Assembly (NCBI GenBank): GCA_037951105.1
Contig: JBAMJV010009067.1
Location: 50,865 to 114,864, forward strand
DNA length: 64,000 nt
Direction of reading: 5' to 3'
Source: Echinarachnius parma
Lineage: Eukaryota > Echinodermata > Echinoidea > Clypeasteroida > Echinarachniidae
In this document: piece after piece, positions 837 through 41,949 of the stretch
How positions within the stretch are numbered: the first letter of the stretch is position 1
How the letters are laid out: each line of letters opens with the position of its first letter
The notes under the pieces: model-generated
The model's input: only the letters and a program-made list of their open reading frames with translations
What the model was told of the DNA's origin: nothing
The model's database searches: none
Position numbers and translations under genes: made by a program

Positions 837-2368
837 ATGAAGGGCCTGTTTGTGATGGCGGGTAAGAGTTTATCGTCAGAATTTTAGAGAAAAATAGTCG
901 TATAAATTAGCAAGCCTTTATATTAATTTTGATATCATGATAGCAATATTGTCTGACTCAAATAAAAAACTCTCAGAGGGGTGTTCTTTTAAGTATATGA
1001 ATATGACTTCCTTACTAGCTTAATTGGCTTTTATACCAGGACAGCGCTCATCATTATTCATCATCGTAATACGATCATCATCATACTATCATCACATCAT
1101 CATACTATGATGATAGTATGATGATGTGACGGTGACGGTGACGGATGTGATGGTGATAATGATGACGTGACGGTGACGGTGACGGATGTGACGGTGATAA
1201 TTATGATGTGACGGAGATGGTGACGGTGATAATGATGTGACGGTGACGGTGACGGATGTGATGGTGATAATGATGATGTGACGGTGATGGTGACGGATGT
1301 TACCGTGATAATGATTATGTGACGGTGACGGATGTGACGGTGATAATGATGATGTGACGGTGACGGATAATGACGATGATAATGATGATGATTAGTTATC
1401 AGGATGATGATGTAGGAGAAAACCTCTTATTGTGATTAGAAAGTTTGAACAAATGAAATGATTTACGCGTATTTTCGAGTTTTGTTATGTCCACTAGCAG
1501 TATTATGACTATAAATTTAGTTAAAAGTAGTATTTGTAATATTCACTAGCAGTTTATTTATTTATTTATTTATTTGTTTTATTTATTTTATACTGCAGGG
1601 TAGGCCTGTTCACTTATGCAAAACTGCTTTACGAAGGCGCCCTGCAGTTTAACTTGCATATTGGCATACAACAAAATATAAACATATATACAATACATTA
1701 TAACAATTCAAAACGAACTTTAATTAGTACCATTTTTTCTTTAATTATAATAATTAATTTTAGTATCATTATTATCATTATTAATATTAATATAAAATTT
1801 TGTTTTAATTTATATGACATTGTCATTATTTGTTATATTACATGTGCTACAGATGTTCTGGTGTTATTGCTGATGGTGTCGCAGCAGCTGCAAGGAGCGT
1901 CTGTGACACCGACATGGCAGCCAAAAAATGCAACCAGGGATGCTGATGACGTAGCAATTGGAGCTTTAATCATAGGTACAGTAAACAAAATTGATATAGG
2001 TTTTCCCGGTCAAGTTTGGCAGTCAAAATCGTTTTTAAATAATTCAAATTCCTAATTTTACCTTAGAAATTACATGAATTTGCCCTTACATGATTTATTT
2101 TCCTCTAAAATTGCATGATGTCTAGCCCATTCTTTACCAACTCTTTCTGCAACGGGGCCATTATCTTGCAGATTCCGATCGACATGACGACATACCAACT
2201 GGCTCACCACCCTGCGCACCGACTCCGACGCCGCTGCTCCCATTCCACATACCGCCCTACGTGTACAAAGTCGTCTTGCCGTCCGTTGGCGCGGGGGTGC
2301 TGCTGCTGTGCTGTTGCTGTTGCTGTTGCGTCTGTTGCTTCAAATGCGGTTGCTGTATATCTAATTGA
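837..2368 (+). CDS. Small polycysteine-tail membrane protein, family copy 1 (3 exons)
   Basis: I do not recognise this gene by name. Proposed exons are 837-861, 1853-1975 and 2172-2368, joined by GT-AG introns that are both phase 1; spliced length is 345 nt, 114 aa plus stop. Exon 1 encodes MKGLFVMA. Exon 2 continues with a Leu-rich core (VLVLLLMVSQQLQGAS), making a typical signal peptide with cleavage probably near GAS, then a polar stretch with one NAT sequon. Exon 3 encodes a Pro/Thr linker, PFHIPPYVY, a short hydrophobic segment and a tail starting with seven consecutive cysteines and ending KCGCCISN. The layout suggests a type I membrane protein with a short extracellular part and a possibly palmitoylated tail; its function is unknown. 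Support comes from the same exons, phases and splice sites in three other copies. No transcript evidence is available. Confidence 0.72.
1060..1395. repeat. GATGATGTGACGGTGACG minisatellite in intron 1
   Basis: A short-period tandem array of GATGAT, GTGACG and GTGATAAT units expands inside intron 1 of copy 1. A CATCATACTATC/GATAGTATGATG hairpin at about 1080-1125 starts it. Copies 2 and 3 keep the hairpin but only a few units (about 14810-14890 and 27203-27285), so the array grew in copy 1 or shrank before the later duplication. Confidence 0.9.
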
Positions 2369-2690
2369 GCATGCATGCTGAAATGATGAGATATTGAATG
2401 TTGCAATCCTTACTGTTGGCACGGTTGCTTACCGATGCAAAGAGTACCATAGTGATTATATCACATTCTTTGGTAAGAACTGTTTAAATTTGTGGGGTCC
2501 CTAAATGGCGCTCTCTTGAATTAACGGCTGATATACGAATACAAACAGCCTTTTCTCTGCCATTCAAGCATAGTTGAGCTAAATGTAGCTCCCTTTAATT
2601 GTAGATGTACTGAACAAGCCTTATTAACCGATGAAGTCCTAGAAAATTAAAAATAACAAAGACAAAGAGACATGGGGCTGAATAGTTATA
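2369..2690 (+). other. 3' flank of family copy 1
   Basis: No ORF of note. The sequence matches the 3' flanks of copies 2 and 3 (about 15762-16157 and 28595-28990), so it belongs to the duplicated block and may contain the 3' UTR. No clear polyadenylation signal lies in the first 250 bases after the stop. Confidence 0.5.
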
Positions 2691-3508
2691 CAGTGTGGCC
2701 TAAAGAAACGGAACTGGGTACCTGCCATAATAAAGAAACATGATGATTTGGTTTGCGGGATAGGGTATCTTTTACAACAACAAAAATATACCAACATTAG
2801 GTGAGTCTGTCGTTAGTTTGATTTCCACCATCGTGGTAATCAACTCGGTCACATTCTTATCACTTTCTGACAGTTTTATCACTACTGTCGACAATCCCAC
2901 GCTGTGTTAACTGCCCCCCGAGGCCCAGTGTTATCACAGAGAGAGGGGCTAGTGATAATTAGAAAGTGCCAACCCTGATAAAAAAAAATTCTACTGGATG
3001 CAGGCTTGAGAGTTCAGAAATCACACCGCAGTTCAGGCCCTCAAAGTTAGGTTTTCACCTAAATCACATGAATCACACGAAGAACAATAATTTATGTTGG
3101 TCAAGTAGTTTTTGTTGAAACCATGTCAGGTTCCCATTTTTGTCATTTTTTACAAAATCAGTGCCTGGTAAATCGCACTTCCTGCCCGTCATAAAATCAA
3201 AACAACTATGCTCCTTCTCTCGGGACACAGCTGAATGCACACTGACAATGGTACACGTATTGTTCGTATTTCGATGCTATGACGGGCAGTAAGTGTGATT
3301 TATCAAGCACTGACTTGATAATAATTGACACAAATAGGAACCTGACATGGTCTCACTTAACATATCCTAAATGGAAAAACTACTCGATCAAAATTATTGT
3401 TCTTGGTATCATTTTTTCTTTTGAAAAGATGGCCTATCGCGTGGACCATCATGTTTATTTATTATGGTAGGTACCCGGTTCGGGTTTTTTTTTCGGGGGG
3501 CCAGTCTG
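2691..3508. mobile_element. CAGGGTGGCC-type foldback MITE, copy 1
   Basis: Degenerate ends (CAGTGTGGCC, and GGCCAGTCTG) flank a long internal inverted repeat, with arms around AACCTGACATGG and CTTCCTGCCCGTCA. It corresponds to the cleaner copies at 16158-16667 and 28991-29500. It is about 300 bp longer because a further sequence, about 2797-3087 with AGGTGA/TCACCT ends, sits in its left arm. TA dinucleotides at the outer edges suggest a Tc1/mariner-like origin; that class is inferred. Confidence 0.7.
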
Positions 3509-4495
3509 TATAGTGGTAAGCCAATGTCTTATTGCCAAATGTAGCTGTAACCACACAATGGCAATTAAAACAATTAAGAGTTTTACAGTTTGGGATAACC
3601 CTTTTTTGTGCGATACACAGGGTGTATATATAGAACGTTATTATGTCAGTAGAATCGGGACATTGCCATGCACATAGTTTTAGAATGTGGTATTGTCTAT
3701 ATTTCTGGATGTTTTATATTGGCAAATGTAGCTGTAACTAATGGCAATAAATGGTACGTTATTGTAGTGCAATTGGGTCATGTCATGCACATAGTTTTTA
3801 GAATCTAAATTTCTGCATGTTTTATATTGCCAGTGCAGCTCATAAGCACTGGAAATAACAACAAGGACCGGAGTTACCTTTGTGTGCGGCACACAGGGTA
3901 TAAATCATTAAAGAACATAATCATTTCAGTGAATTTGGGTCACTGCCATGCACATAATTTTAGGTTTAAAGCAGACTGTCGATGTGTGTTTTTGAATGTG
4001 TTTTTAATAATTATGGTGTTTTTATATATCGTAACATTTGTAAATTTCTGCTTTCACCTGCTGTTCCTCTCTAGTTTATTTAGCTTGTTTATTCTATGTA
4101 TAATATTTTGCCATGCAGATTTATATTATTTCAATGCGTCAGCCAGTGGAGGCAAAATCAAATATATCTATCTATCTATCTATTTATTTATTTATGGATG
4201 TTTTATATTGCCAGGTAAGTGTAGCTCATAACCAATGTCAATACAGACAAGGGTTTTCCCAGTTGATTGGGGGCTTAATAACCCTTTTAAAATGGTACAC
4301 AGATATATCGTTTGTTGTAGTGGAATTGGGTCATAGCGCCATGCACGTAGTTTCAGACTGTGGTTGTAATTGTTTGTTCATTTATTTTTTTATTTTGTTA
4401 AGTGAAAGTGGGTCGATTGCCAGACTGACAATTAAAACAAATTATAGGGAGGAGGGGTCTGGGGACCTTGCCTTTTCACGAGGGGGCACAGTTAA
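3509..4495 (+). repeat. Degenerate tandem repeat, unit about 115-130 bp
   Basis: The phrases TTTTATATTG(C/G)CA, GCTGTAAC(C)AATGGCAAT, GGGTCA-TGCCATGCAC and ATAGTTTTAGAATG recur in the same order about six times with drift. Versions occur in the duplicated blocks (about 16668-17580 and 29501-30410). ORFs here are accidental. A short TATC microsatellite lies near 4166. Confidence 0.75.
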
Positions 4496-4499
4496 GGGG

Positions 4500-4718
4500 C
4501 CGGTCATATATTACCGGATAGAGTAAACGGATAGTAAAATTTAAATCCGTTCTAATGCGTTTCTTTTCGGTTCCTTGTCAGGCGATGTACGTTCTTCTAT
4601 CCGGCGGAATGTTTTGTGCATGAAGCACTGGAGACGACTTAACCACCGGATATTTTTATTTCGCATATTGTATTTTCGTCGAGCATCCGTTTACGCTATC
4701 CGGAGATATGTGACCGGG
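4500..4718. mobile_element. CCGGTCA...TGACCGG inverted-repeat MITE, copy 1
   Basis: The ends read CCGGTCATAT and ATATGTGACCGG. The homology continues inward as ACCGGATAGAGTAAACGG against CCGTTTACGCTATCCGG. Paralogous copies lie at 17633-17852 and 30465-30684, so it entered before the segmental duplications. There is no coding capacity and the superfamily is not assignable. Confidence 0.8.
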
Positions 4719-4984
4719 TCTAAATTATGGAAATATATGTACCCTTTTCGGTGAGGTGGGATGGGGTTGGGGGGGTTATCGTGCTTGCCCCCAATCCCAC
4801 CCTTATTGTTAATCAAAACAAATCTACTACATATAAAAGAGTATACTTGTCGTATTCGTTATCATTTTGAATTCCGGGTTTTAATTTATTTCTGCATTAT
4901 TCAATGTTGACAATAGCAAAAACATTTTGGCAATAAAATAATACGTTATACAGTATAAGTAATAACTATAGGTATTCCTATCCA

Positions 4985-5850
4985 TCCATCGTCAATCGAA
5001 TTCATACAATGATTTGTTCAATTTCGTCCCGATAAGTCTGGAAACTGCAATCGCTACTTTCGATTTAGTAATTTACTAATTGGTTAATGGTCATTCCAAT
5101 AAAAAATTGGTCCTTTCTAATTCGTACTTTTGCAATGGACTTCGTCCCGACTGGTTAAAAACGTACAATGTGAACTTCAAATTCGTCTATGATCATTCAA
5201 TTTCAATACTTAGTCGTTCAAATTTGTCATGTTTAGTCTGGTGCCCTGGTTCATATGTATTTCCCTATTGTAGCTCATATATTCATTTCAAAAATGAATA
5301 ACTTCAATAATAAGTGTTTCTAAAACGATAAACTTATCACAAAACAATTAATTTCGATAATACAATTAAAAAAATTGACCAAACGTTTAATTGATTTATT
5401 CATGCAATAAATGTGTGTAGGGAGACACATTCACATACCGTATTAACTGTTATTCAAAAACTGTTCAATAGACGATAGACTCAAAGTGTGTAATCAAACA
5501 TAGACATTGGGTTCAAATATACAAAGGATAATAATTAAAGAATTATAAAAGTATCAAATACAGCTTTCTATATTGTTTGACGAATTTCAATGGGAAATTA
5601 CGAAACTGAATGCACAATGACAAAATTGATCATCACGTTGTACACCAGCAGGAGCGATCGGACGAAATTAAATAAGCTTCGACTAAAATGATCAGTACAG
5701 TGACGAATTTGATTGCGAAAGAACGAAATTGTGTGTGCAATGACGAAATCAAACATTACATTTGACCGGCGAAAGACTTTCGGACGAAATTAAAAATAAC
5801 AATTAATGAAATTGAATGACGATTGTTTGAAAATGGATGGGAAAACCTGT
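4985..5850. repeat. AATTTCGTC / GACGAAATT motif field
   Basis: TTCGTC words dominate the left half (about 5020-5230) and their complement GACGAA the right half (about 5575-5830). Related words such as TCATTCAATTTCA and TGAAATTGAATGA also pair. The whole is a loose, decayed inverted repeat built of very short repeats. It is conserved in the duplicated blocks (about 18130-18990 and 30960-31820). No gene seen. Confidence 0.6.
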
Positions 5851-6049
5851 AATATAACGTATTTATTATAATTATGATGAGAACTATCATTGTATAAATA
5901 TTCCGAAGAATCTTTATAACAAATATAATCTTCATTAAATTTATTGGTTGATATACCGTACTAGAAAGTAATGTGTGCTCTTTAGTTTCTTTCAACAAAG
6001 AAGTGGGAGGACTCCCACCTCTTTGTTTACAATAAGCGCGTAGTTACAA

Positions 6050-6240
6050 TACCGTATAACACCATCGTTAAGCACCCCCCAAGCACCTACACGCATCTTG
6101 CACGCATCTTGCTTTTAAAGAGCGCCCGCTCTCTGTCCAAAAGGGAAACGTTAATCAAGAATGCAAATAATGGTGAGGAATATATAAACGCCACCTAAGT
6201 GTAGGTGCTTGGGGGTGCTTGACGATGGTGTTCTACGGTA
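6050..6240. mobile_element. TACCGTA-ended MITE
   Basis: A 191-bp element with terminal inverted repeats of about 40 bp: the left arm starts TACCGTATAACACCATCG and the right arm is its near-complement ending at 6240. The arms include AAGCACC and AGGTGCTT. No ORF and no clear target-site duplication. Confidence 0.8.
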
Positions 6241-7380
6241 CTTGAAACAGTGTTTCTTTCCGGGTGGCATGGGGCCAGTATTTCACAGGGTGGACAGGAA
6301 TCAAGTTTAACTTGTTACTGTTACTGGAGATGATTGAAGACATTGGTACAGTTTTGCGATTGAATATTGAGACCATAAAGAGTCTTTCCTAAAGGGATAA
6401 CTGAAGTGTAGCAAAGGCTCGCATTATAATAATGTAAGTCATGTAATGCACCAAACGTTAATTGGCACAAAGTGGATTTCTATGTTTTGCAAACAAAAGA
6501 TTAGTTGATTAATTGATTGATGGATCGATTGATTGATTGATTGATGAATTTACTTTGAATGTTTAAATCGTACATATAAATTTAGATTCGAATCTATTTT
6601 TTCCATTTTCAAAAGGGATTGCGGTATTATACTTATATGAAACCCTCTGTATCTAGTTGTTGTGCCTAACTATAATGCATGACTAGTCGAGCGATAAAAT
6701 AATGGAGCGACTTTTTGATATATCATTGCATATAAATCTTTTCGATTTATCCCTGAACTGCCTGGGGTTACAATAAAATAACTCTTTTACTCGTTTAACT
6801 ATTTCTGTCGTGAACGCCCATTTTTGGTATTTTTGTTGGCCTAGTAATAACAACTATGACCAATATCTGCCTAATTTATCAACATAAACTAGTTTTAAAA
6901 AGAACGAAATTAACCCGTTTTACACCTGTTGAATTTGATGGGAAGGGGGGGGGGGGAAACATATCGTTTTAAAACAAAAAAAAATAGCAATAAGTGAGAG
7001 CCAATTAGGATAAATCTCCAAACTGTTGATAACAAGAAGAATACAAGATATACAACAGGAAATAGTACGAAATCCATGCTCACAACACGAAAAATAACTG
7101 AAGTTCAAGAGAAAAATGAGTTACCAACACAGGTGAACATGATGTATGGCCAAGTTGAGAAACCTTTAGAAAATAATAGAACCGAGCATATACTCTGATC
7201 AAAACGTTTTTAAATGCATATATTTGTATAATCGAAGAAAGATATACCACTCTCAAGTTTCTTGCTTTCATCGAGGCCTATAAAGAAGTTCAATTGTCGC
7301 AACCCGTGATAGATGCGAACCTGTACATCCTTCAAACTTACTTCACTAATGTCAGTAAAGTGCATAACATAGCTTGAGAG
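6241..7380. other. Intergenic stretch without recognisable gene
   Basis: A/T-rich sequence with a GATT microsatellite at about 6500-6545 and a G run near 6945. The short ORFs show no recognisable domain. Confidence 0.5.
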
Positions 7381-7384
7381 AACG

Positions 7385-7458
7385 TTTTTCATTATCTCAC
7401 ACACAAATTAGTTCGTGCAGCGCCCTCTTTACCAAAACTGAACTACCCCTTTTAACCT
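7385..7458. mobile_element. Right end of TTAA-type MITE
   Basis: Matches the terminus seen in complete members such as 35261-35798: TTTTTCATTATCTCAC, then GCAGCGCCCTCT and CTGAACTACCCCTTTTAA. The left part is missing. Confidence 0.65.
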
Positions 7459-7786
7459 CTCACATTTGCTAGATCTACTACCAGCATGAACATCGACGTA
7501 GCATTTTCCAAATAGCGTCAAATTTTGAGACTTAATTTTGGGCCACTCAAATCGTACGGTAGTCGTAAGATTTCAAAGTTATCGTAAGAGTATCTTGCGA
7601 TGTCCGCACGAGTCCCGTAAGACGTCCGTATGGACGCTAATATTGTGTGTACGGGAGCCGTAGGATTAACTTTTACTTTCACTCCCACAGTCATCGCAGG
7701 TACCCCGGCGAATATGTGACTGCTACGCAAAGATACCGCAGACATCGTACGATATCTATACAGCTTGTCCCAAAAAAAATTACAAC

Positions 7787-8290
7787 GGCACTTTCCGCAA
7801 CGATAACTTTAAAGATAGTAGATCAATCAGAGTGATATTTCAGGGTATGAAACTATAACTTATTACCTACGTCTTGCAGAAAACCCTGTTCGATTTGCTT
7901 CAGTGGTCATGGAGAATTAGGATCTTTTGTCAATCGTGTCAGATGTCCCTTCCCGCCAGATTTTGTAAGGAGACGTGTTGTCCATTGACAACGGGACTTT
8001 CTGCAACGAGAACTTTAAAGATAGTGGATCAATCAGAATGATATTTCAGGGTATGAATCTATAACTTAATACGTACAACTTGCAGAAAGCCCTATTCGAT
8101 TTGCTTCAGTGGTCATGGAGAATGAGGATCTTTTGTCAATCATGTCAGATGTCCCTTCCCTCCAGATTTTGTAAGGAGACGTGTTGTCCATTGATAACTT
8201 TCTGCAACGATAACTTTAAAAATAATAAATCAATCAGAATAATATTTCAGGGTATGAAACTATAACTTATTACGTACATCTTGCAAAAAA
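7787..8290. repeat. Three-copy tandem repeat of about 200-206 bp
   Basis: The phrases CTTTC(T/C)GCAACGA, TATTTCAGGGTATGAA and GTGGTCATGGAGAAT recur with CTTTC at 7791, 7997 and 8198. This gives two full units and a third that runs into the large palindrome at 8249-8527. The ORFs inside are not preserved between units. Confidence 0.85.
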
Positions 8291-10564: not shown

Positions 10565-10589
10565 TACCATTATAATTATGACTCCAACA

Positions 10590-13171: not shown

Positions 13172-13196
13172 ATGAAGGGCCTCTTTGTGATAGCAG
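13172..13196 (+). other. Orphan coding exon 1 of the family
   Basis: ATGAAGGGCCTCTTTGTGAT is followed by AGCAG and the donor GTAAGC, encoding MKGLFVIA plus one base. The next family sequence downstream is another exon 1 at 13766, not an exon 2. It could be an alternative first exon for copy 2 or a leftover of a partial duplication. Start and donor are intact. Confidence 0.6.
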
Positions 13197-13765: not shown

Positions 13766-15723
13766 ATGAAGGGCCTGTTTGTGATAGCAGGTAAGAGCTT
13801 ATCGTCAGAATTTTAGTCAAAAATATTCGTATGTATTATCAAGCCTTTATATTTGATATCATGATAGCAATATTGTCTGACTCAAATAAACAACTCTCAG
13901 TGGGGTTTTCTTTTAATTATATGAATATGACTTCCTTACTAGCTTAAGGCCCAAAAATAATATTCTTATTGAAAAAAGGTAACATCTTTAGTATTCCATT
14001 CCATCAACAAGTTCACAAAAATATGTTTCCAGAAAGAAAAAAAAATAATTGGAAACGCATCACCATTATAAAGCATGCGTTCATGCGGTCTGAATTACGC
14101 AGACTGCTATGTGTGCGGTGAATTGCAATGTGTGCATAGCGAACGAATCGCCCGGGAAGCGTTTATTTTTTCCGTAACCCTAACGCGTCGGAATTGCCAA
14201 AAGCGTGCTGAAATCTAAGACTAGCTCGCGTGTGTTGATTTACACGCAAGCTATAGCTATTTTATCAATACAATCGTGGCTTCATACACCATGATGACTG
14301 TGAGTGTGATAGAATACGCCTAGATGAATGTTCCTAGTCTCATTGTCGTGGTCGTAGTCCGCATCGAGATCGGCCACTAATTAATGGTCACCCTTGCCCT
14401 TGGACTTGTCTATTTAGTTCGTGTATCGCAGAGCCGAAGATTTTGATCCATAATAGCAGCAGGGGCTAGTCTTGGCTTACCAGCGCGCTTTCACGAGTTT
14501 TTGAGGAAAACTGACGCGTTAGGGTTACGGAAAAGAATCTATTTTTTACATACGTGCGCGTTAATAGCATTGGCGCACTCGCAAATGGTTGGCCCGTATG
14601 GAAATAGCAGTGGTTCCGTAGGTGGTGGAAATTAATTGCTTTGTTTATGAATTACACAACCCTTTGCAAAATGTTAGGTATCTATTTGATATCACAAAAC
14701 GGTACCAAAACATATAATAATGTGTTGTTCTTTACCTCGTGGTCCCCTTTAATTGGCTTTTATACCAGGCCAGCGCTCATCATTATTCATCATCGTAATA
14801 CGATCATCATCATTCTATCATCACATCATCATACTATGATGATAGTATGATGATGTGACGGTGACGGTGACGGATGTGATGGTAAAAATGACGATGATTA
14901 ATTATCATGATAACGATGGAGGAGAAAAAATCTTATTGTGATTAGAAAGTTTGAAAAAATGAAATGATTTACGCGTATTTTCGAGTTTTGTTATGTTCAC
15001 TAGCAGTATTATGAGTATAACTTTAATTAATAGTATTATTTGTCCTTTAATTATCATGATTAATTTTATTATTATTATTTTCATTATTACTATTATTATT
15101 ACTTTTTGTTTTTATTTATATGACATTGTCATCTTGTTATATTACATGTGCTACAGATGTCCTGGTGTTGTTGCTGACGATGTCTCCGCAGCTGCAAGGA
15201 GCGTCAGTGACACCGACATCGCAGCAACAAAATGCAACCAGGGATGCTGATGACGTAGCAATCGGAGCTTTAATCATAGGTACAGTAAACAAAATTGATA
15301 TAGGTTTTACCGGTCAAATTTGGCAAATTAGCAGTCAAATTCGTTTTTAAATCATTCAAATTCCTAAGTTTACCTTAGAAATTACATGAATTTGCCCTTA
15401 CATGATTATATTTTCCTCTAAAATGACATGATATCTAGCCCATTCTTTACCAACTCTTTCTGCAACGGGGCCATTATCTTGCAGATTCCAATCGACATGA
15501 CGACATACCAACTGGCTCACCACCCGGCGCACCGACTCCGACGCCGCTGTTCCCATTCCACATACCGCCCTACGTGTACAAAGTCGTCCTGCCGTGCGTT
15601 GGGGTGCTGCTGCTGTGCTGCTGCTGTTGCTGCTGTTGCTTCAAACGCAGTTGCTGTATATATAATCACGGGCGTACCCATTCAACTGGGGGGACGATCT
15701 ATTCATCCATCCCCACCAGTTGA
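13766..15723 (+). CDS. Polycysteine-tail membrane protein, family copy 2 (3 exons)
   Basis: Exons 13766-13790, 15157-15279 and 15485-15723 with GT-AG phase-1 introns give 387 nt, 128 aa plus stop. Exon 1 encodes MKGLFVIA; exon 2 completes the signal peptide (VLVLLLTMSPQLQGAS) and adds a polar stretch with NAT. Exon 3 encodes SPPGAPTPTPLFPFHIPPYVY, a short membrane segment and eight consecutive cysteines, then FKRSCCIYN. From there the frame runs into an 87-bp MITE (15667-15753), which supplies HGRTHSTGGTIYSSIPTS and the stop. Without it the protein would end at IYN, as copy 1 ends ISN. Intron 1 holds a TTAA element with another element nested in it. Function unknown; probably a type I membrane protein. 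Confidence 0.7.
13948..14748. mobile_element. TTAA-flanked element, family 2 (AGGGGACCAC ends)
   Basis: TTAA stands at 13944-13947 and 14749-14752. Family copy 1 has the uninterrupted site TAGCTTAATTGGC near 1017. The right end reads GTGGTCCCCT; the left terminus is partly deleted compared with the complete relative at 49244-49673. The TTAA target suggests piggyBac-like mobilisation. Another element (14172-14530) is nested inside. Confidence 0.8.
14172..14530. mobile_element. Nested MITE with CCGTAACCCTAACGCGTC ends
   Basis: The 18-base end is exactly inverted at both sides. The relative at 49244-49673 lacks this segment (it reads across from CCCGGGCGAAT to AGATTC), so it is a later insertion into the TTAA element. 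The same nested copy lies at 26565-26923. Confidence 0.85.
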
Positions 15724-15753
15724 ATAGGTATTACGTAAGTCGCTACGCCCGTG
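15667..15753. mobile_element. 87-bp hAT-like MITE inside coding exon 3
   Basis: The ends CACGGGCGTA and TACGCCCGTG are inverted, with an internal ATTCAACTGG / CCAGTTGAAT pair. The flanks TATATAAT (15659-15666) and TATGTAAT (15754-15761) look like an 8-bp target duplication with one change. Copy 1 has the empty site (TATATCTAATTGA). The element provides the last 18 codons and stop of copy 2. Confidence 0.88.
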
Positions 15754-20866: not shown

Positions 20867-21145
20867 GGAAAACCCACTACTACTGCACATTGATATAGCA
20901 TGCCAGTTGTCAATTACAACGCCATATACATTTCCAAAGCGCATCATAGACATTATAATTAACAAACCAAGTATTTCATCCAGCTATAACCAATTGAATT
21001 GTTTAGTGCGCTTATTCATCGTCTGCATTTTGGGAATAAATACAGCCTTTTATTTTCCAGATATCAACAAAAAAATACAATTTGAAGCTTTCTTCTAACA
21101 ACAACCGCTGATCTGATACCGTGAAGGGCCTCCTTGTAATGGCAG
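20867..21145 (+). pseudogene. Upstream module and exon 1 with lost start codon
   Basis: GGGGAAAACCCACTACTAC begins the block. At 21121 the coding exon reads GTGAAGGGCCTCCTTGTAAT then GGCAG and donor GTAAGC. The ATG has become GTG; the rest of the exon and the splice donor remain. There is no exon 2 before the next exon 1 (26159). Confidence 0.65.
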
Positions 21146-21322
21146 GTAAGCGTTTTCATCAGAATGTTAGACAAATATAGTCGTATGTATTATCAAGCCA
21201 TTATATTTAATATCATGATATTATGTTTCTACATGAATGGACGAAGGCTAATGAAAGTATTATGAATAATGAAGTGTTCACATTTTCGAGAACATAATTT
21301 CTGGAAACCTAATTTTCTCACA

Positions 21323-21760
21323 AGTAAAATATATTTTACCATAAAAATTATAGTATTACAAATTTGTATTCTATTTGAATTACCCGACAGTCCAACAAAT
21401 ATATTTCGCCAATATAAGTCCTTCAATTCATCTAACTCATAACGTTGTATCAAAGCTTGCCATATCAATTTTACATTTAAACAAAACCAAAATATATGTG
21501 AATATGTTTCCCTTTCCTGTTTACAGTACGAACATAAATTATCTTCAACATATCCAAATCTAAACAAATGTTCTTTAGTATAAATTGCCCCATGCAGTAA
21601 GTTAAATTGAAACTCTCTCTGCCTCCCTATCATTAATGTTATTCGTGGTCTAAAAAAACATTCACTTAGTTCTTTATCTGTATAATTATAATTATTTTGT
21701 CCATCCCTTCTTTGTAAATCATATGACTTTTGCAATTCTCAAATAAAATAATCATATATT
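21323..21760 (-). pseudogene. LINE reverse-transcriptase C-terminal fragment (L1/Tx1-like)
   Basis: The minus-strand frame from about 21735 gives FQFNLLHGAIYTKEHLFRFG, then a C-x2-C...H-x4-C knuckle (CSYCKQERETYSHIFWFC), then KLIWQAL. This is the zinc-knuckle region downstream of the polymerase in L1/Tx1-like non-LTR retrotransposons. The frame is open to the junction at about 21322, where family flank sequence resumes, so the fragment lacks both its 5' part and its 3' UTR. Clade assignment is from pattern only. Confidence 0.7.
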
Positions 21761-26158: not shown

Positions 26159-26340
26159 ATGAAGGGCCTGTTTGTGATAGCAGGTAAGAGCTTATCGTCA
26201 GAATTTTAGTCAAAAATATTCGTATGTATTATCAAGCCTTTATATTTGATATCATGATAGCAATATTGTCTGACTCAAATAAACAACTCTCAGTGGGGTT
26301 TTCTTTTAATTATATGAATATGACTTCCTTACTAGCTTAA

Positions 26341-27141
26341 GGCCCAAAAATAATATTCTTATTGAAAAAAGGTAACATCTTTAGTATTCCATTCCATCAA
26401 CAAGTTCACAAAAATATGTTTCCAGAAAAAAAAAATAATAATTGGAAACGCATCACCATTATAAAGCATGCGTTCATGCGGTCTGAATTACGCAGACTGC
26501 TATGTGTGCGGTGAATTGCAATGTGTGCATAGCGAACGAATCGCCCGGGAAGCGTTTATTTTTTCCGTAACCCTAACGCGTCGGAATTGCCAAAAGCGTG
26601 CTGAAATCTAAGACTAGCTCGCGTGTGTTGATTTACACGCAAGCTATAGCTATTTTATCAATACAATCGTGGCTTCATACACCATGATGACTGTGAGTGT
26701 GATAGAATACGCCTAGATGAATGTTCCTAGTCTCATTGTCGTGGTCGTAGTCCGCATCGAGATCGGCCACTAATTAATGGTCACCCTTGCCCTTGGACTT
26801 GTCTATTTAGTTCGTGTATCGCAGAGCCGAAGATTTTGATGCATAATAGCAGCAGGGGCTAGTCTTGGCTTACCAGCGCGCTTTCACGAGTTTTTGAGGA
26901 AAACTGACGCGTTAGGGTTACGGAAAAGAATCTATTGTTTACAAACGTGCGCGTTAATAGCATTGGCGCACTCGCAAATGGTTGGCCCGTATGGAAATAG
27001 CAGTGGTTCCGTAGGTGGTGGAAATTAATTGCTTTGTTTATGAATTACACAACCCTTTGCAAAATGTTAGGTATCTATTTGATATCACAAAACGGTACCA
27101 AAACATATAATAATGTGTTGTTCTTTACCTCGTGGTCCCCT
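26341..27141. mobile_element. TTAA element, family 2, with nested MITE (copy 3 intron 1)
   Basis: Counterpart of 13948-14748, flanked by TTAA. The nested CCGTAACCCTAACGCGTC element is at 26565-26923. Both entered before the segmental duplication. Confidence 0.8.
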
Positions 27142-27600
27142 TTAATTGGCTTTTATACCAGGCCAGCGCTCATCATTATTCATCATCGTAATACGATCAT
27201 CATCATTCTATCATCACATCATCATACTATGATGATAGTATGATGATGTGACGGTGACGGTGACGGATGTGATGGTAAAAATGACGATGATTAATTATCA
27301 TGATAACGATGGAGGAGAAAAAATCTTATTGTGATTAGAAAGTTTGAAAAAATGAAATGATTTACGCGTATTTTCGAGTTTTGTTATGTTCACTAGCAGT
27401 ATTATGAGTATAACTTTAATTAATAGTATTATTTGTCCTTTAATTATCATGATTAATTTTATTATTATTATTTTCATTATTACTATTATTATTACTTTTT
27501 GTTTTTATTTATATGACATTGTCATCTTGTTATATTACATGTGCTACAGATGTCCTGGTGTTGTTGCTGACGATGTCTCCGCAGCTGCAAGGAGCGTCAG

Positions 27601-28040
27601 TAGCGTCTTTTCGCTCGGCGACGGGACTGCGGCTACGGGGGATTTAAATTAGCTTTGATCGTCCCCGTACTCTGGCTACCGTCGCGATCTATTTGCAGTT
27701 TCGCAATTCTGAATACGCGGGAGTTTCCGCGCTTGCTATAGCATACGGTATAATGCAATACACAATTCACAACATACTGTGCAGCGCATGTACACGAATC
27801 AGTGCATGAAACACGTGTGAGGCAATGTTTATCTAATTTGCATGCGAGCCTCGCCGTCACAGTAAACAAGCGCTCTGATTGGCTGATCACGTACCCCCGT
27901 AGTACCTCTACGCCCGACGTTAATTCGACGAACTACCGTCCTAGGTTTGGCCGCTACGGGGGAATTTTCGCTCTGAGTGCGACCCCCCGCTAAGATTAGC
28001 GTTGTAGCCATAGTCCCGTCGCCGAGCGAAAAGACGCTAA
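27601..28040. mobile_element. 440-bp element with 28-bp inverted ends, inside exon 2
   Basis: The left end begins TAGCGTCTTTTCGCTCGGCG and the right end at 28039 is its exact complement over 28 bases. Copy 2 (15207/15208) and copy 1 have uninterrupted exon 2, so the edges are certain to within a base. No target-site duplication is obvious; one extra A at 28040 follows the right end. GCTACGGGGG / CCGCTACGGG words recur inside. No transposase ORF; superfamily unassigned. Confidence 0.88.
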
Positions 28041-28499
28041 TGACACCGACATCGCAGCAACAAAATGCAACCAGGGATGCTGATGACGTAGCAATCGGAG
28101 CTTTAATCATAGGTACAGTAAACAAAATTGATATAGGTTTTACCGGTCAAATTTGGCAAATTAGCAGTCAAATTCGTTTTTAAATCATTCAAATTCCTAA
28201 GTTTACCTTAGAAATTACATGAATTTGCCCTTACATGATTATATTTTCCTCTAAAATGACATGATATCTAGCCCATTCTTTACCAACTCTTTCTGCAACG
28301 GGGCCATTATCTTGCAGATTCCAATCGACATGACGACATACCAACTGGCTCACCACCCGGCGCACCGACTCCGACGCCGCTGTTCCCATTCCACATACCG
28401 CCCTACGTGTACAAAGTCGTCCTGCCGTGCGTTGGGGTGCTGCTGCTGTGCTGCTGCTGTTGCTGCTGTTGCTTCAAACGCAGTTGCTGTATATATAAT

Positions 28500-28586
28500 C
28501 ACGGGCGTACCCATTCAACTGGGGGGACGATCTATTCATCCATCCCCACCAGTTGAATAGGTATTACGTAAGTCGCTACGCCCGTG
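28500..28586. mobile_element. 87-bp hAT-like MITE in exon 3 of copy 3
   Basis: Identical in position and sequence to 15667-15753. It predates the segmental duplication. Confidence 0.88.
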
Positions 28587-30410: not shown

Positions 30411-30464
30411 TATTGGGAGGGGGGCTGGGGACCTTGCCTTTTTACGCGGGGGCACAGTTAAGGG

Positions 30465-34736: not shown

Positions 34737-35100
34737 TTTAACGGGGAAACCCCACCACTACGTGACTACGTGACTTGACATTGATACCGCATTCCACGCA
34801 TACTCAAAGCGCATCATTTATAACAGGCCACTCTGGACAGCTATACACAGAATAGGGAGCTATACAACCATCCTGCTATAACCAATTGAATGGTGAATGC
34901 TACATCTTCTACCTTTTGGGAACAGATCTATACAAGCTTATATTCTACCGTTATCAACTAAGAAATACATTTTGAAGCTTTCTTCTAACAGCAACCGCTG
35001 ATCTAAGAACTTCATTCCAGTGCTTGTGACCAGCTATTGTCTAGAGCGCAGTGGAAGCGTATCTCCGGTGTGACGCTACCATAAGGGTCTCGTGATTGTG
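34737..35100 (+). pseudogene. Decayed upstream module and exon-1 remnant
   Basis: GGGGAAACCCCACCACTACG near 34743 and TTCTAACAGCAACCGCTGATC near 34982 match the leader. The place of ATGAAGGGC is replaced by unrelated sequence, so no start codon or coding exon remains. Confidence 0.55.
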
Positions 35101-35260
35101 TGCGGTAAATTTAATTATTTCCTCAGAGTTACTGACATTATACAAAATCTCTTAGAAATCAACCAAAGTGAGTCAAATCCTGAAAATATTCAAGCACATC
35201 CCTAGATGTATTTCCAATATACCGTTTTGTTTTTTTTTATCGTCCGGAATTCTCCTTTAA

Positions 35261-35798
35261 AGGGGTAGTTTAGTTTTGGTAAGGCTGAACTTTAGTAGCC
35301 AAAACCTGCACAGTAACATTATAAACTAATAGTTATAACTCCACCATGCTCGAAAGGTATACAAAATTACAAACGACCAAGTAAAACGCCGGTTATCATT
35401 CAAAAAGAGCCATTAAAACACAAGAGGGCGCTTTTTTTTAAAAAGGCATTGGTTTCAACCATTTTCACCCAAAATTATGCATGTGATGTTTTGTTGATAT
35501 AATGATTAAATAGCGAGATCATCAACAACCATTTAAAAAACGCTTTTAAAATTTTTTGAAAAAGTGCAAGCATTTTTTTTATTTTTTCAAAAAATCATCT
35601 AATTATTTGGGCCCCAAATAATTATAAGATCAGATATATTTATTGATATTTCAGCCGTTTCTGGGTCGATTTTGACCAAATAAAGTTTATTCTGCCATTA
35701 AAATTGCATGTTCTCTCAAATTCGACACTCAGTTTTTCATTACCACACAAAAAAATTGCGATGTGCAGCGCCCTCTCTACCAAAACTAAACTACCCCT
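35261..35798. mobile_element. TTAA-flanked MITE, family 1 (AGGGGTAGTTTAG ends)
   Basis: Bracketed by TTAA (35257-35260 and 35799-35802). The ends AGGGGTAGTTTAGTTTTGG and CAAAACTAAACTACCCCT are inverted; AATTATTTGGGGCCC and TTTCAGCCGTTTCTG words are inside. Confidence 0.88.
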
Positions 35799-35924
35799 TT
35801 AAGAAACCTTCGTATACTAACCTTGTCGACTTTTACAGCTTTGCGCTACCTGTATCTGAACGTAAAGTGACCCCCAACAAATTGATATGCATTGAAATAC
35901 AACACAACGCATTTATGCAAATAA

Positions 35925-36087
35925 ACGGGGCAACCCACCATTAGCATAATTGAAATCCAAGTGCTACGCAAAGCATTTATCGGGGAAAACACACATTTAC
36001 ATTGAAATACAACCTTGTATTTTCCAGATATCAACTAAGAAATGCAATTTGAAGTTTTCTTCTAACATCAACCGCTGATCTGATAAC
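35925..36087 (+). promoter_or_regulatory. Upstream module of family copy 4
   Basis: A shortened and rearranged version: GGGGCAACCCACCATTAG near 35927, CGGGGAAAACACACATTT near 35979, then CCAGATATCAACTAAGAAAT and CAACCGCTGATCTGATAAC before the ATG. Presumed promoter and 5' UTR. Confidence 0.5.
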
Positions 36088-39000
36088 ATGAAGGACCTCT
36101 TTGTGATAGCAGGTAAGCGTTTTTCATCAGAATTTTAGACAAAATAGTCGTATGTATTTTCAAGCCTTCATATGGATAATAATTATCTATCTATCTATCT
36201 ATCTGTCCGTGTGAATTATGGGCACATGTGTGCCCAGGGCATGATCATGCCTACAAGTACATTTGTTTGAATGTTTATAGAAATTGTTATAATTGCAATG
36301 AAGTTCATTATTGTCATGATTGTTATTGCCTTCTTTTCCATTTGCCAGTGAATGACACATTTCTTTATAACATGTATGGTCATGTGTCATGAACTCGCCT
36401 CCAAATAGGGTGGCGCCGTTACATTTTTGGGTTTTTTGGTACCATCTTCTTAATTTTTTTCAAAACCTGAAAACCTTTCTTAACAAATTTGGTATCATTT
36501 TAAAGAGCTGTCAGAGTGCTATCTATCTGCAAAGTTGAGATACAGCTATGTGAAGGTTGGAGCAAGAGGGTGGCGCAGGAAGCGGCGCCCGTGTACAAAG
36601 TCTATGGGAAGATGTCTCTCAAAGTGCAACTTTTCCTAAAACGTTAATAACTTTGTCAAAACTAGATGCATAGCAACAATGTTGGTTTTAAATGAAAGCT
36701 TAAACGTTGAATTATAATGTAAAATGATTGAAAAGTGTGTTTGCTTTATCAAATTTTAACTAAATTACCACAAACATAGAAAATTGGTGGTTGCCTGTAC
36801 AAACTCTATATAGGGGCACAATCTTGACCGATACATTTTGTGAATTCTTTGTAAAAACGTTAATATCTTCCAAAAGAAAAGGTGTAAGACTGCAAATTTG
36901 GTACCAAATTAAAGGTTACTTATCAAATCGTATTATGTCCCAACATATTGAGGGCTTAACTTTATATTCCATTCCACTAGTGACTCCTACATAGTGAAAA
37001 TGATTAATTATTTCAACAGAAAAAAATCATGAAGTATGAATGAAAATATCTCCCGCAAAATAATAATTTACCCCATACAATATTATATTGCTGTAAAGGT
37101 CTAAGTCTGCCCTGCATGAAAATATTATCATAAGTTGTCTAGACCTACTTCAGAAAAAGTTATCAGGAAAATATTGACCTTCAAAACTGCAAACAAAATT
37201 TCAAGTTTTGGTTAATAAACAAACTTAACTGTACACCAAATGTGATTTTTGAGGGCATATTTGGGTTCCTTGGGAAATTTCCTTTCAGTAAATGTATAGT
37301 TGTGATAGGATAGGGGGACTTCCTCAGAAAATATTAGCTATCCTATTGTAACAGTGTCCCGCAGAAGCCCAATCGGCATATAACGCAAAAGGAGGTGACC
37401 TCACGACGCATGACCGTATATGTTTGAAGACCTATACAAATATATATTATCTTATCTTATCTTCAAGCAACCATGGAACAAGTGGACTTTAAAACAGTCA
37501 TTCGACCCAGAACATCCCAACCCCACGACACGAAGATTACATAACATGCCTAATCGAAAAGTCTGAGAAATTCATGAAGGCTATTAACTTTGTTGAGTGA
37601 TTTTCTTCTTGAATTAATTACTTCATAATTCATATCCTAACATGATATGAAGAGTGGTCACATGTGTGCTCACAAAACAACGTTGTACGTTGTAGTGTAG
37701 AGCAATGAAGTCGTACTGAATATTGTTGTATATATATATATACATACATAATAATGCAAAGAATAATCATAAATGATTGAGAAGGAAGAATAATAGGCAT
37801 AGCTTAATAAGCATTATTCCTCCCTTTAATCCTTCCCCATGAATTAATTGAGTACAAAGGGCCGATAGATTGGCTTGCCAATGACCTGAATTTGGATCTG
37901 TCTTCAATCACACGGTCCCTGTGGCCTAGTGGTTAAGGCGTCAGCGTTCCAAGCTGGAAACCCGGGTTCGAGTCCTGGCGGAGACCAATTTTTCGACCAG
38001 TGCCTTTTTTCATTTGGAGGATTAAAGGGAGGAACAATGCTTATTAAGCTACGCCTATTATTCTTCCTTCTCAATCATATATGATTATTCTTTGCATTAT
38101 TTAAATATTGGAAGAAACCAAAGCTGTATGTATTAGTTCGCCTTTCGTTGATATATATGTTCTAACTAATACTTGAATCACTCCTTTGTGATCCAGCTGA
38201 AGTACAGGCGGCTTGCATTGTTCGTAACTCCTTCCCCATGAATTAATTGAGTACAAAGGGCCGATAGATTGGCTTGCCAATGACCTGAATTTGGATCTGT
38301 CTTCAATCACACGGTCCCCGTGGCCTAGTGTTTAAGGCGTCAGCGTTCCAAGCTGGAGACCCGGGTTCGAGTCCTGGCGGAGACCAATGTTTCGACCATT
38401 GCCTTTTTTCATTTGGAGGATTAAAGGGAGGAACAATGCTTATTAAGCTACGCCTATTATTCTTCCTTCTCAATCATTTATGATTATTCTTTGCATTATT
38501 TAAATATTGGAAGAAACCAAAGCTGTATGTATTAGTTCGCCTTTCGTTTATATATATGTTCTAACTAATACTTGAATCACTCCTTTGTGATCCAGCTGAA
38601 GTACAGGCGGCTTGCATTGTTCGTAACTCCTTCCCCATGAATTAATTGAGTACAAAGGGCAGAGAGATTGGCTTTCCAATGACCTGAATTTGGATCTGTC
38701 TTCAATCACACGGTCCCCGTGGCCTAGTGGTTAAGGCGTCAGCGTTCCAAGCTGGAGACCCGGGTTCGAGTCCTGGCGGAGACCAATTTTTCGACCAGTG
38801 CCTTTTTTCATTTGGAGTATTAAAGGGAGGAACAATGCTTATTAAGCTACGCCTATTATTCTTCGTTCTCAATCATTTATGATTATTCTTTGCATTATTT
38901 AAATATTGGAAGAAACCAAAGCTGTATGTATTAGTTCGACTTTCGTTTATATATACATATATATATACACAAATATATCTAACCTATGTCTCTCCACTGG

Positions 39001-41949
39001 AGAAGGAAGGCCTATAGCTGCAGATCTTCTTTCGTGTGCTTGTCGCATCAATGTAACACACCCAAATCCTCTGATCATCTGATGTCATCCATTCAACGCC
39101 TACTCTGTCTGCCTCTTCGTCTGGTCTGAGTTGTTGGTGTCAAATTAGTTATATGCGTCCATCTGTTGTCCGTACGTCTTGCAAGGGTGGCCTTCCCATC
39201 TCCATTTCTTTGTTTTTTATTTCCGGTATGATATTCCTGGTATATGTTTTATTTCTTAAGTCCTCATTTCTGACCTTGTCTCTTCCTGGAACTCCTACCA
39301 TTGCTCTTTCTGTGACCCTACATATCTTGTCAAATTTCTTAGTTGTTGCCCAAGTCCATTCCCCGTAAGATAGTACCAGAATTATACACTGATTAAAGAT
39401 TTGTCTTTTGAGGGAGATTGGAAGATTCTCATCTCTGAACATGATGCTGAGTTTCCCAAATGTTGCCCTCTTGCCTTCCCTTCTTCTTCACACTTCTCCT
39501 ATCGTTTTCATTTTTTTTTATTTTCAAGGGTGATGATGCTTTCACCGAGTTATATTTAGTCTTGTCAGAAGGCGCTAGCGTATGGCCATAATAACCTCAC
39601 CCTCACCCCATTATTAATATTATTGTTGTTGTTATTATTTGTTTAATTACATATTACTGATTGTATATTTTTGTTATTATGTATAACATTACATTTGCTA
39701 CAGATGTCCTGATGTTGTTGCTGACAGTGTCGCAGCAGTTGCAAGGAGCGTCTGTGCCACCGACATTGCAGCAACAAGCTATTATGGGTATGTCTTATTA
39801 GTTATCACTATTACGTAACATTAAATGGATAGTACAGTTTTGGTTTAGCGGGAGCTTCAGGAAATAATGTTTTCGTGAGGTACTGAAAAAAACAAGTGTA
39901 AAATCACAATGTTAAAGACAGAAAAAACTTTGTTTGATTTAAGTACAGCTTAAATATCCATACATATATCCATTTAGAATTACTGTTGGGCCCACATTTA
40001 TTTAATAATTAAATATAAACATTTATAAACATTTATAATTTAACCAAACATCACATTTACATTGTTTAATTTAAGAATTGGAGCAAATTACAAATGTGCC
40101 GTTAATGTGTTTTTGGTTTTCTACATTTTAAGCCCAGCTGCATGAATTATAATCAATATTATGATCAATATATTATTGATAACTTAGAGTTTGACTAAAA
40201 TAAAATTTGACCAGAACTGTACTATCCTGATAATACTAAATGATAATTTGAAATCGAAATGAAACCTATGCAACTGGGATTTTAGCTGTACTACTGCTAC
40301 TACTCCTAACAATTATAGTACTTATTTCAATTATTACAATTATGTCGTTTTCATGCTGGCAGACTTTTCATCGGATGCGTCCGGACGCATCCGATGAAAC
40401 GGCCAGCATGAATGGTACAGAGGAGAAAAAGCCGATAGAATAGGCGATGAAAAGAAGAGAAATAGGCGATTAAATTCTCCTACTTTAGAGTAGGAGAAAT
40501 TCTCTTTCTATCGGTGTGTCACTCCGATGAAACGGGCAGCATGAAATGGTTCGGGTGAAAAATACCGATGAAAACGGTCAAAGGTCGTTATCTTGTTCCG
40601 GCTAAAGCAGTGTAACGCGCGCTTTTTCGGAACACCGGCATGCGATAATAATATGCTGCGCCAGCATAGCTCGTGTAAGGTGAACCTCGAGTATCGTGCC
40701 CGTGTTTTTTGTTGACGTTTTGTTTACGTATAAATTTATTCGTTTTACTTGTATATTGTATGAATATAAAGGTTAAACAAAATAAAAATTCATGTACATC
40801 GTTATAATAATATATTTATTATAAAGCAATATATTTATAAAACCAAATGATGAACAGAACAATATTTAAAACGGATCACTCTTTCCTTGGAATTTGCGCA
40901 GTCACGTTGCTACAATTGTTTGCAGCTGTAGTTTATACTAGTCGCCAAATCCACTATATCTGCCAGCTCGTGCAGCAAACGATTGCGCAACAATTCTTCA
41001 CTTCCGGCCGGTGAATGCAAAAGGCGATTAAATTCCCCTGCACTATGAACGCGACAGAGGGGAAGTGGCAATTTCACCGTTGTTTACATAAGAAATTCCA
41101 TCGGTATTTTTCATCGGTAAGGGCAGCATGAAAATGTACCATCAATTATGATAACAACTACAGAGGGCGCTCTCTCCCTACTCCAGTGATTAAAAAAAAG
41201 CATAGGGGGAAAGCTGTGCCGAAAAAATACAAAAATAAAAAAGGGTGTGCCCCCAACCTCCCACCCCCTTGTACGAATTTAGCATGGTAGTACCACGGTA
41301 AAACCATGGCACGGTACAAAACCATGGTCACACAGTTCTGTACCATACCGTGATTTTACTATGGGACGGGTACCATGGCATGACCGTGGATACTATACCG
41401 CGGTAATACCATGGGTGCCATGGTACTACCATGGAATCCATGGTATTACCATGGTACTACCATGAAAACCATGGTTTTACCATGGTACTTTTTTTTGTAA
41501 TGGCCACCCCTTAATCAGTCTGACCACGCTACGCCACTCAGGACAACTTAACAAATGTTCTCATGGTTATATTATATATTTATCATTTTGCAGATTCCAC
41601 TCTTCGTGACGCCATAACAACAAACGGTGCAACAACCAGCGCACAAACCGGCACGACAACCAGCGCACAAGCCGGCACGACAACCGGCACACCAACCGGC
41701 ACGACAACCGGCACACCAACCGGCACACCACCCGGCGAACCAACCGGCACTACAACCGTCAAACCAACCGGCACACCAACCGGCGCACCGACTCCGGCGC
41801 CGCTGCTCCCATTCACCATACCACCCTACGTGTACATCATCATCCTCCCATGTGTTGCTGCGGTGCTGCTGCTTATCTGCTGCTGCTGCTGTTTGTGCAA
41901 GTGTAGACTCAGGGCTTGTTGCGGATGCGATTGTAAATCCAGATATTGA
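36088..41949 (+). CDS. Mucin-like polycysteine-tail membrane protein, family copy 4
   Basis: Exons 36088-36112, 39704-39787 and 41594-41949, all joined in phase 1 by GT-AG introns; 465 nt, 154 aa plus stop. Exon 1 encodes MKDLFVIA; exon 2 completes the signal peptide (VLMLLLTVSQQLQGAS) and is 39 nt shorter than in the other copies, keeping frame. Exon 3 encodes about 65 residues of Thr/Ser/Gly/Pro repeats (GTTTSAQ, GTPT), then PLLPFTIPPYVY, a strong membrane segment (IIILPCVAAVLLLI), five cysteines and a further Cys/Arg/Lys-rich tail ending KSRY. The linker is a likely O-glycosylation target. Introns of 3.6 and 1.8 kb hold tandem tRNA-like units, a LINE remnant and MITEs. Probably a type I membrane protein; ligand and role unknown. 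Confidence 0.72.
36180..37740. other. Intron 1 of copy 4, unclassified non-coding part
   Basis: A TATC microsatellite lies at about 36183-36205. From about 36408 to 37350 comes a stretch with AGGGTGGCGC words (36408, 36567) and GTACAAAGTCTATGGGAAGA; it looks like a dispersed repeat but has no inverted ends that I can see. No ORF with domains. Confidence 0.4.
37751..38100. repeat. Inverted repeat (arms about 80 bp) around first tRNA-like unit
   Basis: Left arm 37751-37831 (ATAATGCAAAGAATAATCAT...) and right arm 38020-38100 (...ATGATTATTCTTTGCATTAT) are near-perfect complements. The tRNA-like sequence is in the loop. Confidence 0.85.
37915..37986 (+). tRNA. tRNA-Gly(UCC)-like, unit 1
   Basis: 72 nt fold as a cloverleaf: acceptor GTCCCTG/CGGAGAC with one C-A mismatch, D arm GCCT/AGGC with loop AGTGGTTA, anticodon arm TCAGC/GCTGG with loop GTTCCAA (anticodon TCC), T arm CCGGG/CCTGG with loop TTCGAGT. 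A TTTTT terminator follows four bases or so later. The mismatch and repeat context leave open a tRNA-derived repeat. Confidence 0.7.
38314..38385 (+). tRNA. tRNA-Gly(UCC)-like, unit 2 (probably decayed)
   Basis: Same cloverleaf, but the D loop reads AGTGTTTA (one of the two conserved G lost) and the downstream T run is cut to TTT (AATGTTTCG). Likely poorly transcribed. Confidence 0.55.
38713..38784 (+). tRNA. tRNA-Gly(UCC)-like, unit 3
   Basis: Same fold as unit 1 with acceptor GTCCCCG, intact AGTGGTTA loop, anticodon TCC and a TTTTT terminator. It keeps the C-A acceptor mismatch. Confidence 0.7.
38990..39500 (-). pseudogene. RTE-type LINE reverse-transcriptase C-terminal remnant
   Basis: The minus-strand frame gives LKRQIFNQCIILVLSYGEW, TWATTKKFDKICRVTERAMV, GRDKVRNEDLRNKT and a degraded GRPP..RTTD stretch. 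This order is typical of the region after the polymerase in RTE-like LINEs. Downstream the frame breaks (stop after GRI), but further decayed C-terminal words continue towards 39000. Lies in intron 1 of copy 4, antisense to it. Confidence 0.75.
39825..40229. mobile_element. Degenerate TTAA-type MITE
   Basis: TTAA at 39821-39824; the left end TGGATAGTACAGTTTTGG and right end CCAGAACTGTACTATCC are inverted. The interior matches family 1 weakly (TATTTAATAATT, AACATCACATTTAC). Sits in intron 2 of copy 4. Confidence 0.65.
40346..41137. mobile_element. TTTTCATGCTG-ended element with 60-bp palindrome
   Basis: The ends TTTTCATGCTGGCAG and GGGCAGCATGAAAAT are inverted. Near the left end 40351-40412 is itself palindromic around GATGCGTCCGGACGCATC. 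CATCGG / CCGATG words recur throughout. Non-coding; class unknown. Confidence 0.65.
41270..41492. repeat. CCATGG palindrome-dense tract
   Basis: ACCATGG-type palindromes (CCATGG, TACCATGGTA) recur at short, irregular spacing across about 220 bases, mixed with ACCACGGTA and ACCGCGGTA variants. Nearly any part can pair with any other. Lies just upstream of exon 3 of copy 4. Confidence 0.9.

Follow-up and report, generated by a model that had tools for sequence, protein, structure and literature searches.

A 64,000-nt stretch of sand dollar DNA contains short exons for leader peptides, proline- and threonine-rich linkers and cysteine runs, and an initial annotation proposed that these form an unnamed tandem gene family. 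This raises the question of whether the exons belong together as genes and, if so, what kind of protein they encode. The whole stretch (hereafter the window) corresponds to positions 50865-114864 of the contig that we label C9051, and the genome searched comprises 1.2 Gb in 14,790 contigs.

Four tandem copies of a three-exon gene

Reading the window in six frames detected four copies of exon 3 carrying the IPPYVY motif (starts at 2172, 15485, 28318 and 41594), all of which lie on the + strand at a spacing of 12.8-13.4 kb. Upstream of each copy, relatives of exon 1 and exon 2 are present in the correct order, giving gene spans of 837-2368, 13766-15723, 26159-28556 and 36088-41949. In the search of the 1.2-Gb genome, the gene 2 query matched the other exons 3 of the window at 2.6e-42, 7.4e-29 and 5.6e-12. 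The proposed tandem family is thus present, but the count of three loci must be raised, since the window holds four copies. Their features are as follows:

837..861, + strand: gene 1 (A2), exon 1; 25 nt, MKGLFVMA, phase 1 donor
1853..1975, + strand: gene 1, exon 2; 123 nt, rest of the signal peptide and start of the ectodomain
2172..2368, + strand: gene 1, exon 3; Pro/Thr linker, IPPYVY, membrane segment, Cys7+2 tail, stop
13172..13196, + strand: additional cassette resembling exon 1; MKGLFVIA, donor intact, 594 nt before gene 2 exon 1
13766..13790, + strand: gene 2 (A3), exon 1
15157..15279, + strand: gene 2, exon 2; 123 nt
15485..15723, + strand: gene 2, exon 3; Cys8, short palindromic insertion changes the C-terminal end
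21121..21145, + strand: orphan exon-1-like cassette; GTG replaces ATG
26159..26183, + strand: gene 3 (A4, broken), exon 1
27550..28112, + strand: gene 3, exon 2; interrupted by a 440-bp element
27601..28040, + strand: the repeated element in gene 3 exon 2; 440 bp, 36-bp terminal inverted repeats
28318..28556, + strand: gene 3, exon 3; all 67 residues compared agree with gene 2
36088..36112, + strand: gene 4 (B2), exon 1
39704..39787, + strand: gene 4, exon 2; 84 nt
41594..41949, + strand: gene 4, exon 3; mucin-like Thr/Pro/Gly repeats, IPPYVY, membrane segment, Cys5, further Cys/basic tail, stop
41632..41789, + strand: minisatellite within gene 4 exon 3; 12/24-bp coding repeat, TGTP/TGTT units

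All 12 copies that were modelled, in the window and elsewhere, can be read open through three exons and yield predicted products of 114-154 aa; in three of these models the first exon is less certain, namely in B4 (GC donor), B6 (borrowed exon) and C1 (loose search). In the DNA models the exons of gene 1 splice in frame at 861/1853 and 1975/2172, exactly as first proposed. The claim that both introns are in phase 1 likewise extends to every intron computed for the 12 models. All have GT..AG ends with the exception of B4, whose first donor (C2483:764) is GC. Intron 1 of B6 was left out of this count, its exon 1 being borrowed from elsewhere; the exon 1 in the expected place carries an 11-nt deletion. 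The exon lengths first given, 25 nt for exon 1 and 123 or 84 nt for exon 2, describe the window correctly but not the entire family: exon 1 measures 28 nt in the type C copy C1, and exons 2 of 78, 87 and 108 nt occur elsewhere, the frame being kept throughout.

Alignment at the DNA level addressed whether the three exons are parts of one gene. Comparison of A2 with B2 yielded islands at C9051 positions 51625-51787, 52684-52785 and 53052-53191, which correspond to exons 1, 2 and 3 with small margins, in addition to one short out-of-order match and one match in the 3' flank. Between A2 and C1 only exons 2 and 3 aligned, and B2 and C1 shared these two exons plus one intronic stretch at 67%; exon 1 of C1, the most diverged copy, gave no alignment at this level. 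In the close pair A1-A2 the introns align too. As far as DNA tells, the pattern fits conserved exons amid drifting introns. An origin of the exons from different genes, which the initial annotation had named as a refutation, was ruled out at the DNA level because the diverged copies align chiefly on exons and share their order.

Copies across the genome and segmental duplication

Whole-genome protein searches located at least 13 exon-3 places on six contigs, some of which are probably alleles: six on C9051, two each on C3985 and C2483, and one each on C7144, C13030 and C6494. The number is a lower bound; repeat searches returned the same places, one search missing one of them. According to exon 3, six places are of type A (the broken gene 3 and the C7144 allele included), six of type B and one, on C6494, of type C, which is the most diverged. 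The stem is short in type A and forms a long Thr/Pro/Gly repeat of variable length in type B.

Over 10.2 kb, C7144 and C9051:50973-61150 agree at 99.2%; for C2483:33780-46364 and C9051:29477-43348 the figure is 97-99%. As these matches look allelic, the 13 places do not represent 13 independent genes. If the contigs are indeed allelic, the C2483 haplotype would carry two type B genes versus one on C9051. The C2483 region may instead be paralogous to C9051, given that its other flank also matches a second C9051 place. C13030 contains an internal repeat of 3.6 kb whose copies are nearly identical (98%). Within the window, genes 2 and 3 are alike at 98.0% over 4.9 kb and 99.3% over 1.9 kb and are, judged from this identity, the products of a recent duplication. 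Segmental duplication among the clustered genes was therefore found both in the window and in the comparison of contigs.

Several other features were noted along the way. By eye, a GAT/GACGGT-rich minisatellite occupies window positions 1090-1400 in intron 1 of gene 1, and open frames at 21232-21738 and 39152-39487, both on the - strand, look like fragments of non-LTR retrotransposon proteins. Local tandem repeats at 37827-38955 and 62256-63299 consist of ~398-bp units (97-98% identity) and ~154-bp units. Elsewhere in the genome, bindin (PF02084) gave matches of 1.2e-33 and, nearby, 3.3e-10. The mitochondrial contig C14600 (19.7 kb) contains the ND5-ND6-CYTB part twice by eye, once with broken frames, as if the circle had been over-assembled from noisy reads. 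Its gene order, with names assigned by eye from translations, is ND1-ND2-(16S gap)-COX1-ND4L-COX2-ATP6-COX3-ND3-ND4-ND5, with ND6 on the opposite strand; this fits the echinoid/holothuroid order and not that of starfish. Among the groups thus left, bindin marks urchins, and the two observations together suggest that the source is a sea urchin.

Disrupted copies and first-exon cassettes

The 440-bp insertion in gene 3 belongs to a repeated element. When 40 of 1249 first-look candidates were scored, 82 match rows were obtained: 40 span 258 bp or more of the element at 77-100% identity, among them the copy in the window, one covers 127 bp and 41 match the ends of the element, i.e. the 36-bp inverted repeats. 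These copies together with the terminal inverted repeats identify it as a mobile element of the MITE type. A further copy resides at C9051:48388-48822, ~2 kb outside the window. Moreover, a short palindromic insertion (~15667-15750 and 28500-28583), of sequence CACGGGCGTA...TACGCCCGTG, provides genes 2 and 3 with a new C-terminus near the stop codon. The copy whose exon 3 lies at C9051:7180 carries it too.

Besides the first exons of the modelled genes, additional cassettes exist. The one at 13172 most resembles the 21121 cassette and the first exons of type B and is possibly an alternative first exon of gene 2. Outside the window, damaged cassettes lie at C2483:764, which has no GT donor, and at C13030:13605, which has suffered an 11-nt deletion. 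From -95 to +85 around the ATG, identity among copies amounts to 72-100% (51-59% for C1), and the sequence flanking exon 1 is therefore conserved along with the exon itself. In the cassette tree, B3 and B5 are placed nearer to A2/A5, which hints at a swap of leader and promoter between types A and B. As a single B group was not rejected (AU p=0.19), such an exchange is possible at best.

Constraint is clearest on the membrane/Cys part

Selection was estimated by counting in five pairs and four regions, which amounts to 20 one-sided tests for constraint with uncorrected p values on short sequences and non-independent pairs. The following pN/pS ratios were obtained:

Whole CDS: A2-C1 0.61 (p=0.0059); B2-C1 0.57 (p=0.021); A2-B2 0.68 (p=0.056); A2-A3 0.49 (p=0.058); B2-B5 1.02 (p=0.61)
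Membrane/Cys part: B2-C1 0.32 (p=0.0023); A2-B2 0.58 (p=0.042); A2-C1 0.66 (p=0.12); A2-A3 0.34 (p=0.12)

Constraint was clearest on the membrane/Cys part. Within type B no sign of it was seen in the B2-B5 test or in the pooled B-B membrane omega, which reached 1.56; the membrane/Cys part of B2-B5 differs by three nonsynonymous and zero synonymous changes. Ectodomain ratios ranged from 0.59 to 2.0 and were near or above 1 in three of the five pairs, while positive selection on the ectodomain was not found in any of the five (pN>pS, one-sided p 0.17-0.98).

Mean dN values for leader, ectodomain and membrane/Cys part, respectively, were:

A-B: 0.086, 0.201, 0.403
B-B: 0.026, 0.038, 0.019
A-A: 0.061, 0.045, 0.031
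A-C: 0.247, 0.241, 0.442
B-C: 0.195, 0.127, 0.164

The ectodomain figures are derived from aligned residues, large changes in stem length falling outside dN. The leader had been described as much better conserved than the linker. This applies to A-B and weakly to B-B, but not to A-A, A-C and B-C, and across the five sets the leader is therefore clearly the best-kept part only between A and B.

The missing constraint within type B bears on the reading that most copies are relics, i.e. that a few active genes sit in segmental duplications in which many copies decay, and that the variation reflects lack of constraint. The disruption of gene 3 by a mobile element, the orphan or damaged first exons (GTG start, lost GT donor, 11-nt deletion) and the ectodomain ratios just given point in the same direction. 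However, the modelled copies are open at up to 26% nonsynonymous difference, their exons change length in threes, and constraint on the coding sequence is significant in A2-C1 and B2-C1. We therefore consider wholesale decay unlikely.

Protein anatomy and the cysteine run

The 12 models confirm a leader, a Pro/Thr stem, a single membrane segment and a Cys tail as the common plan of the family. Hydropathy maxima over 10 residues of the leader are 2.6-3.1, and the best 19-residue value of the membrane segment is 2.5-3.2, in all 12 models; an Asp within the leader cuts its hydrophobic core to ~8 residues. The predicted extracellular part comprises 53-89 residues and is rich in Pro and Thr. Ser and Thr together make up 31-40% of the ectodomain in types B and C and 17-19% in type A, and Pro accounts for 14-19% in types B and C. 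A combination of a repeated Ser/Thr/Pro ectodomain with one membrane segment, as in membrane-tethered mucin-like proteins, is thus present in types B and C and weakly developed in type A. Of ten aligned exons 3, seven encode the neck IPPYVY and three the variant IPRYVY.

In all 12 models, the membrane segment terminates on its inner side in a run of 4-8 Cys, followed by basic residues such as a cytosolic tail would have. The range of 5-8 given initially agrees with the runs of 7, 8, 8 and 5 in the window and needs this slight extension for the family. In total, 11-13 Cys follow the neck, and ectodomain Cys are confined to gene 1 and its probable allele. A Cys cluster located where the membrane segment presumably meets the cytosol, ahead of basic residues, has the placement of an acylated one, provided that the topology we infer is correct.

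A scan of 286,732 bases from six contigs detected 12 runs of at least five Cys codons, all 12 of them within exons 3 of the family, and a general TGC microsatellite was ruled out for this reason as the source of the poly-Cys runs. In gene 4, a TGC-like triplet repeat coincides in part with the Leu/Cys stretch, and some of this run may therefore result from slippage.

The tail might alternatively serve mainly as a metal-binding or redox module, membrane attachment being secondary. The distal CKCRLRACCGCDCKSR of type B seems akin in its Cys spacing (CxC, CC, CxC) to metallothioneins, the 10-residue motif ACCGCDC[KR]SR is kept in 6/6 type B and C rows of the alignment, and the strongest constraint of all was measured on the membrane/Cys part of B2-C1. 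On the other hand, type A has a shorter tail with a single CC pair, the Cys of the membrane run are in an unfavorable position to bind metal, and metallothionein is absent from the six Pfam families matched at E<=10 by nine proteins. A primary role in metal or redox chemistry consequently appears rather improbable to us.

Searches for relatives

None of the nine proteins scanned (of the 12 models) had a credible Pfam match. The best E value was 0.15, and the listing at E<=10 comprised six families, with HMMER filters dropping most matches above ~0.1. CYSTM, named initially as a candidate to check, is not among these six families, nor are the Shisa and CYYR1 profiles, and no mucin domain was among the matches for the nine proteins. 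A PDB sequence search returned nothing for one protein, and the family profile gave one chain, CoxIn (E 0.64), which we took as chance. Prokaryote genomes and viral contigs contained no confirmed relative of the type A exon 3 query; among eukaryotes, the source genome was the one searched. Of 73 rows in total, 57 were weak non-family rows (E>=0.01), and the three of these that were read as candidate distant paralogues showed simple repeats or a common repeat interrupted by stops rather than the family. Keyword searches of the open-access literature found no description of the layout, an absence that is weak evidence. In the Holothuria glaberrima genome paper (PMC13228809), the terms 'transmembrane' and 'signal peptide' are absent from the main text.

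A probable mucin-like surface protein family

Taken together, these data are most economically explained by a mucin-like type I surface family that is probably S-acylated, the main rivals being a metal-binding tail and a decaying family. More precisely, the window would harbor part of a family that is young and has expanded by local duplication, and whose small proteins are mucin-like, cross the membrane once in type I orientation and are held at the surface by an S-acylated anchor; we assign this reading a probability of about 55%. In the intact copies, the first-exon cassette, the short second exon and the third exon share order and phase. Glycosylation, acylation and function are deduced from sequence features. 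According to this model, the leader would be cut near QGA-S in the ER and the repeat stem would be O-glycosylated. DHHC acyltransferases would then palmitoylate the Cys at the cytosolic face, whereby the protein would be held in ordered plasma-membrane domains and contribute to a coat on the cell surface. Unequal crossing-over could let the stem drift in length and the genes in number, and copies may also be lost to mobile elements. The moderate Ser/Thr content of type A stems, the Asp in the leader, the triplet repeat at the Cys run of gene 4, the borderline or non-significant results for A2-B2 (whole CDS) and A2-C1 (membrane/Cys) and the lack of constraint within type B speak against the model.

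A bolder version holds that this is an undescribed echinoid family with a conserved poly-Cys anchor and leader-promoter cassette, in which a stem of minisatellite-determined length and a gene number varying between haplotypes would serve the recognition of individuals at the surface of cells or gametes. We regard it as improbable. Least probable is that the family diversifies rapidly in recognition or immunity and functions in the manner of SpTransformer (185/333), with the stem as its recognition face. A tandem cluster, a common leader exon, repeats in a variable exon, segmental duplication and a gene number that possibly differs between alternative haplotypes would be compatible with it, and SpTrf is likewise described in PMC8634487 as a cluster with segmental duplication, conserved exon 1 and variable, repeat-bearing exon 2. 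However, positive selection on the ectodomain and leader/promoter exchange between subfamilies both lack support, the sand dollar genes consist of three exons, where SpTrf has two, and encode a membrane anchor, and their copy number is small.

Small unnamed membrane proteins in tandem arrays easily escape annotation. If expressed, the mucin-like surface family would offer a natural series with the same anchor, different stems and one copy that a mobile element has recently disrupted, which could be used to test poly-Cys anchoring of proteins and the evolution of repeat stems.

Comparison with known systems

A Cys run at the membrane boundary is known from CYSTM, cysteine-string and synaptotagmin-type proteins, several of which are S-acylated there, and the sand dollar family shares this feature. 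To our knowledge, CYSTM proteins have neither a signal peptide nor an ectodomain. Shisa and CYYR1 are small type I proteins with a signal peptide, one membrane segment and a composition rich in Pro, Tyr and Cys, and resemble the family in all these respects. Their Cys-rich part is extracellular, whereas nearly all Cys of the sand dollar family come after the neck.

At the level of gene organization, the SpTransformer (Sp185/333) genes are clustered, segmentally duplicated and composed of a conserved exon 1 and a variable, repeat-bearing exon 2, according to PMC8634487. Cluster, segmental duplications, a short conserved leader exon and a later exon with repeats and length changes are common to both families. 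Compared by description, the three coding exons of our 12 models, the membrane segment and the Cys tail set the sand dollar genes apart from the two-exon SpTransformer genes. In the SmPoMuc genes of Schistosoma, as described in PMC2576457, the repeats stem from a 27-bp exon that is itself repeated, and a gene can have as many as 15 exons. Signal peptide, varying repeat number, gene copy number variation and copies damaged by mobile elements recur in the sand dollar family, the repeat of which is, unlike that of SmPoMuc, contained in one exon. As far as these sources go, the behavior of the gene family resembles that of SpTransformer and SmPoMuc, while its exon plan is that of neither; the layout varies a known theme and by itself opens no new class of system.
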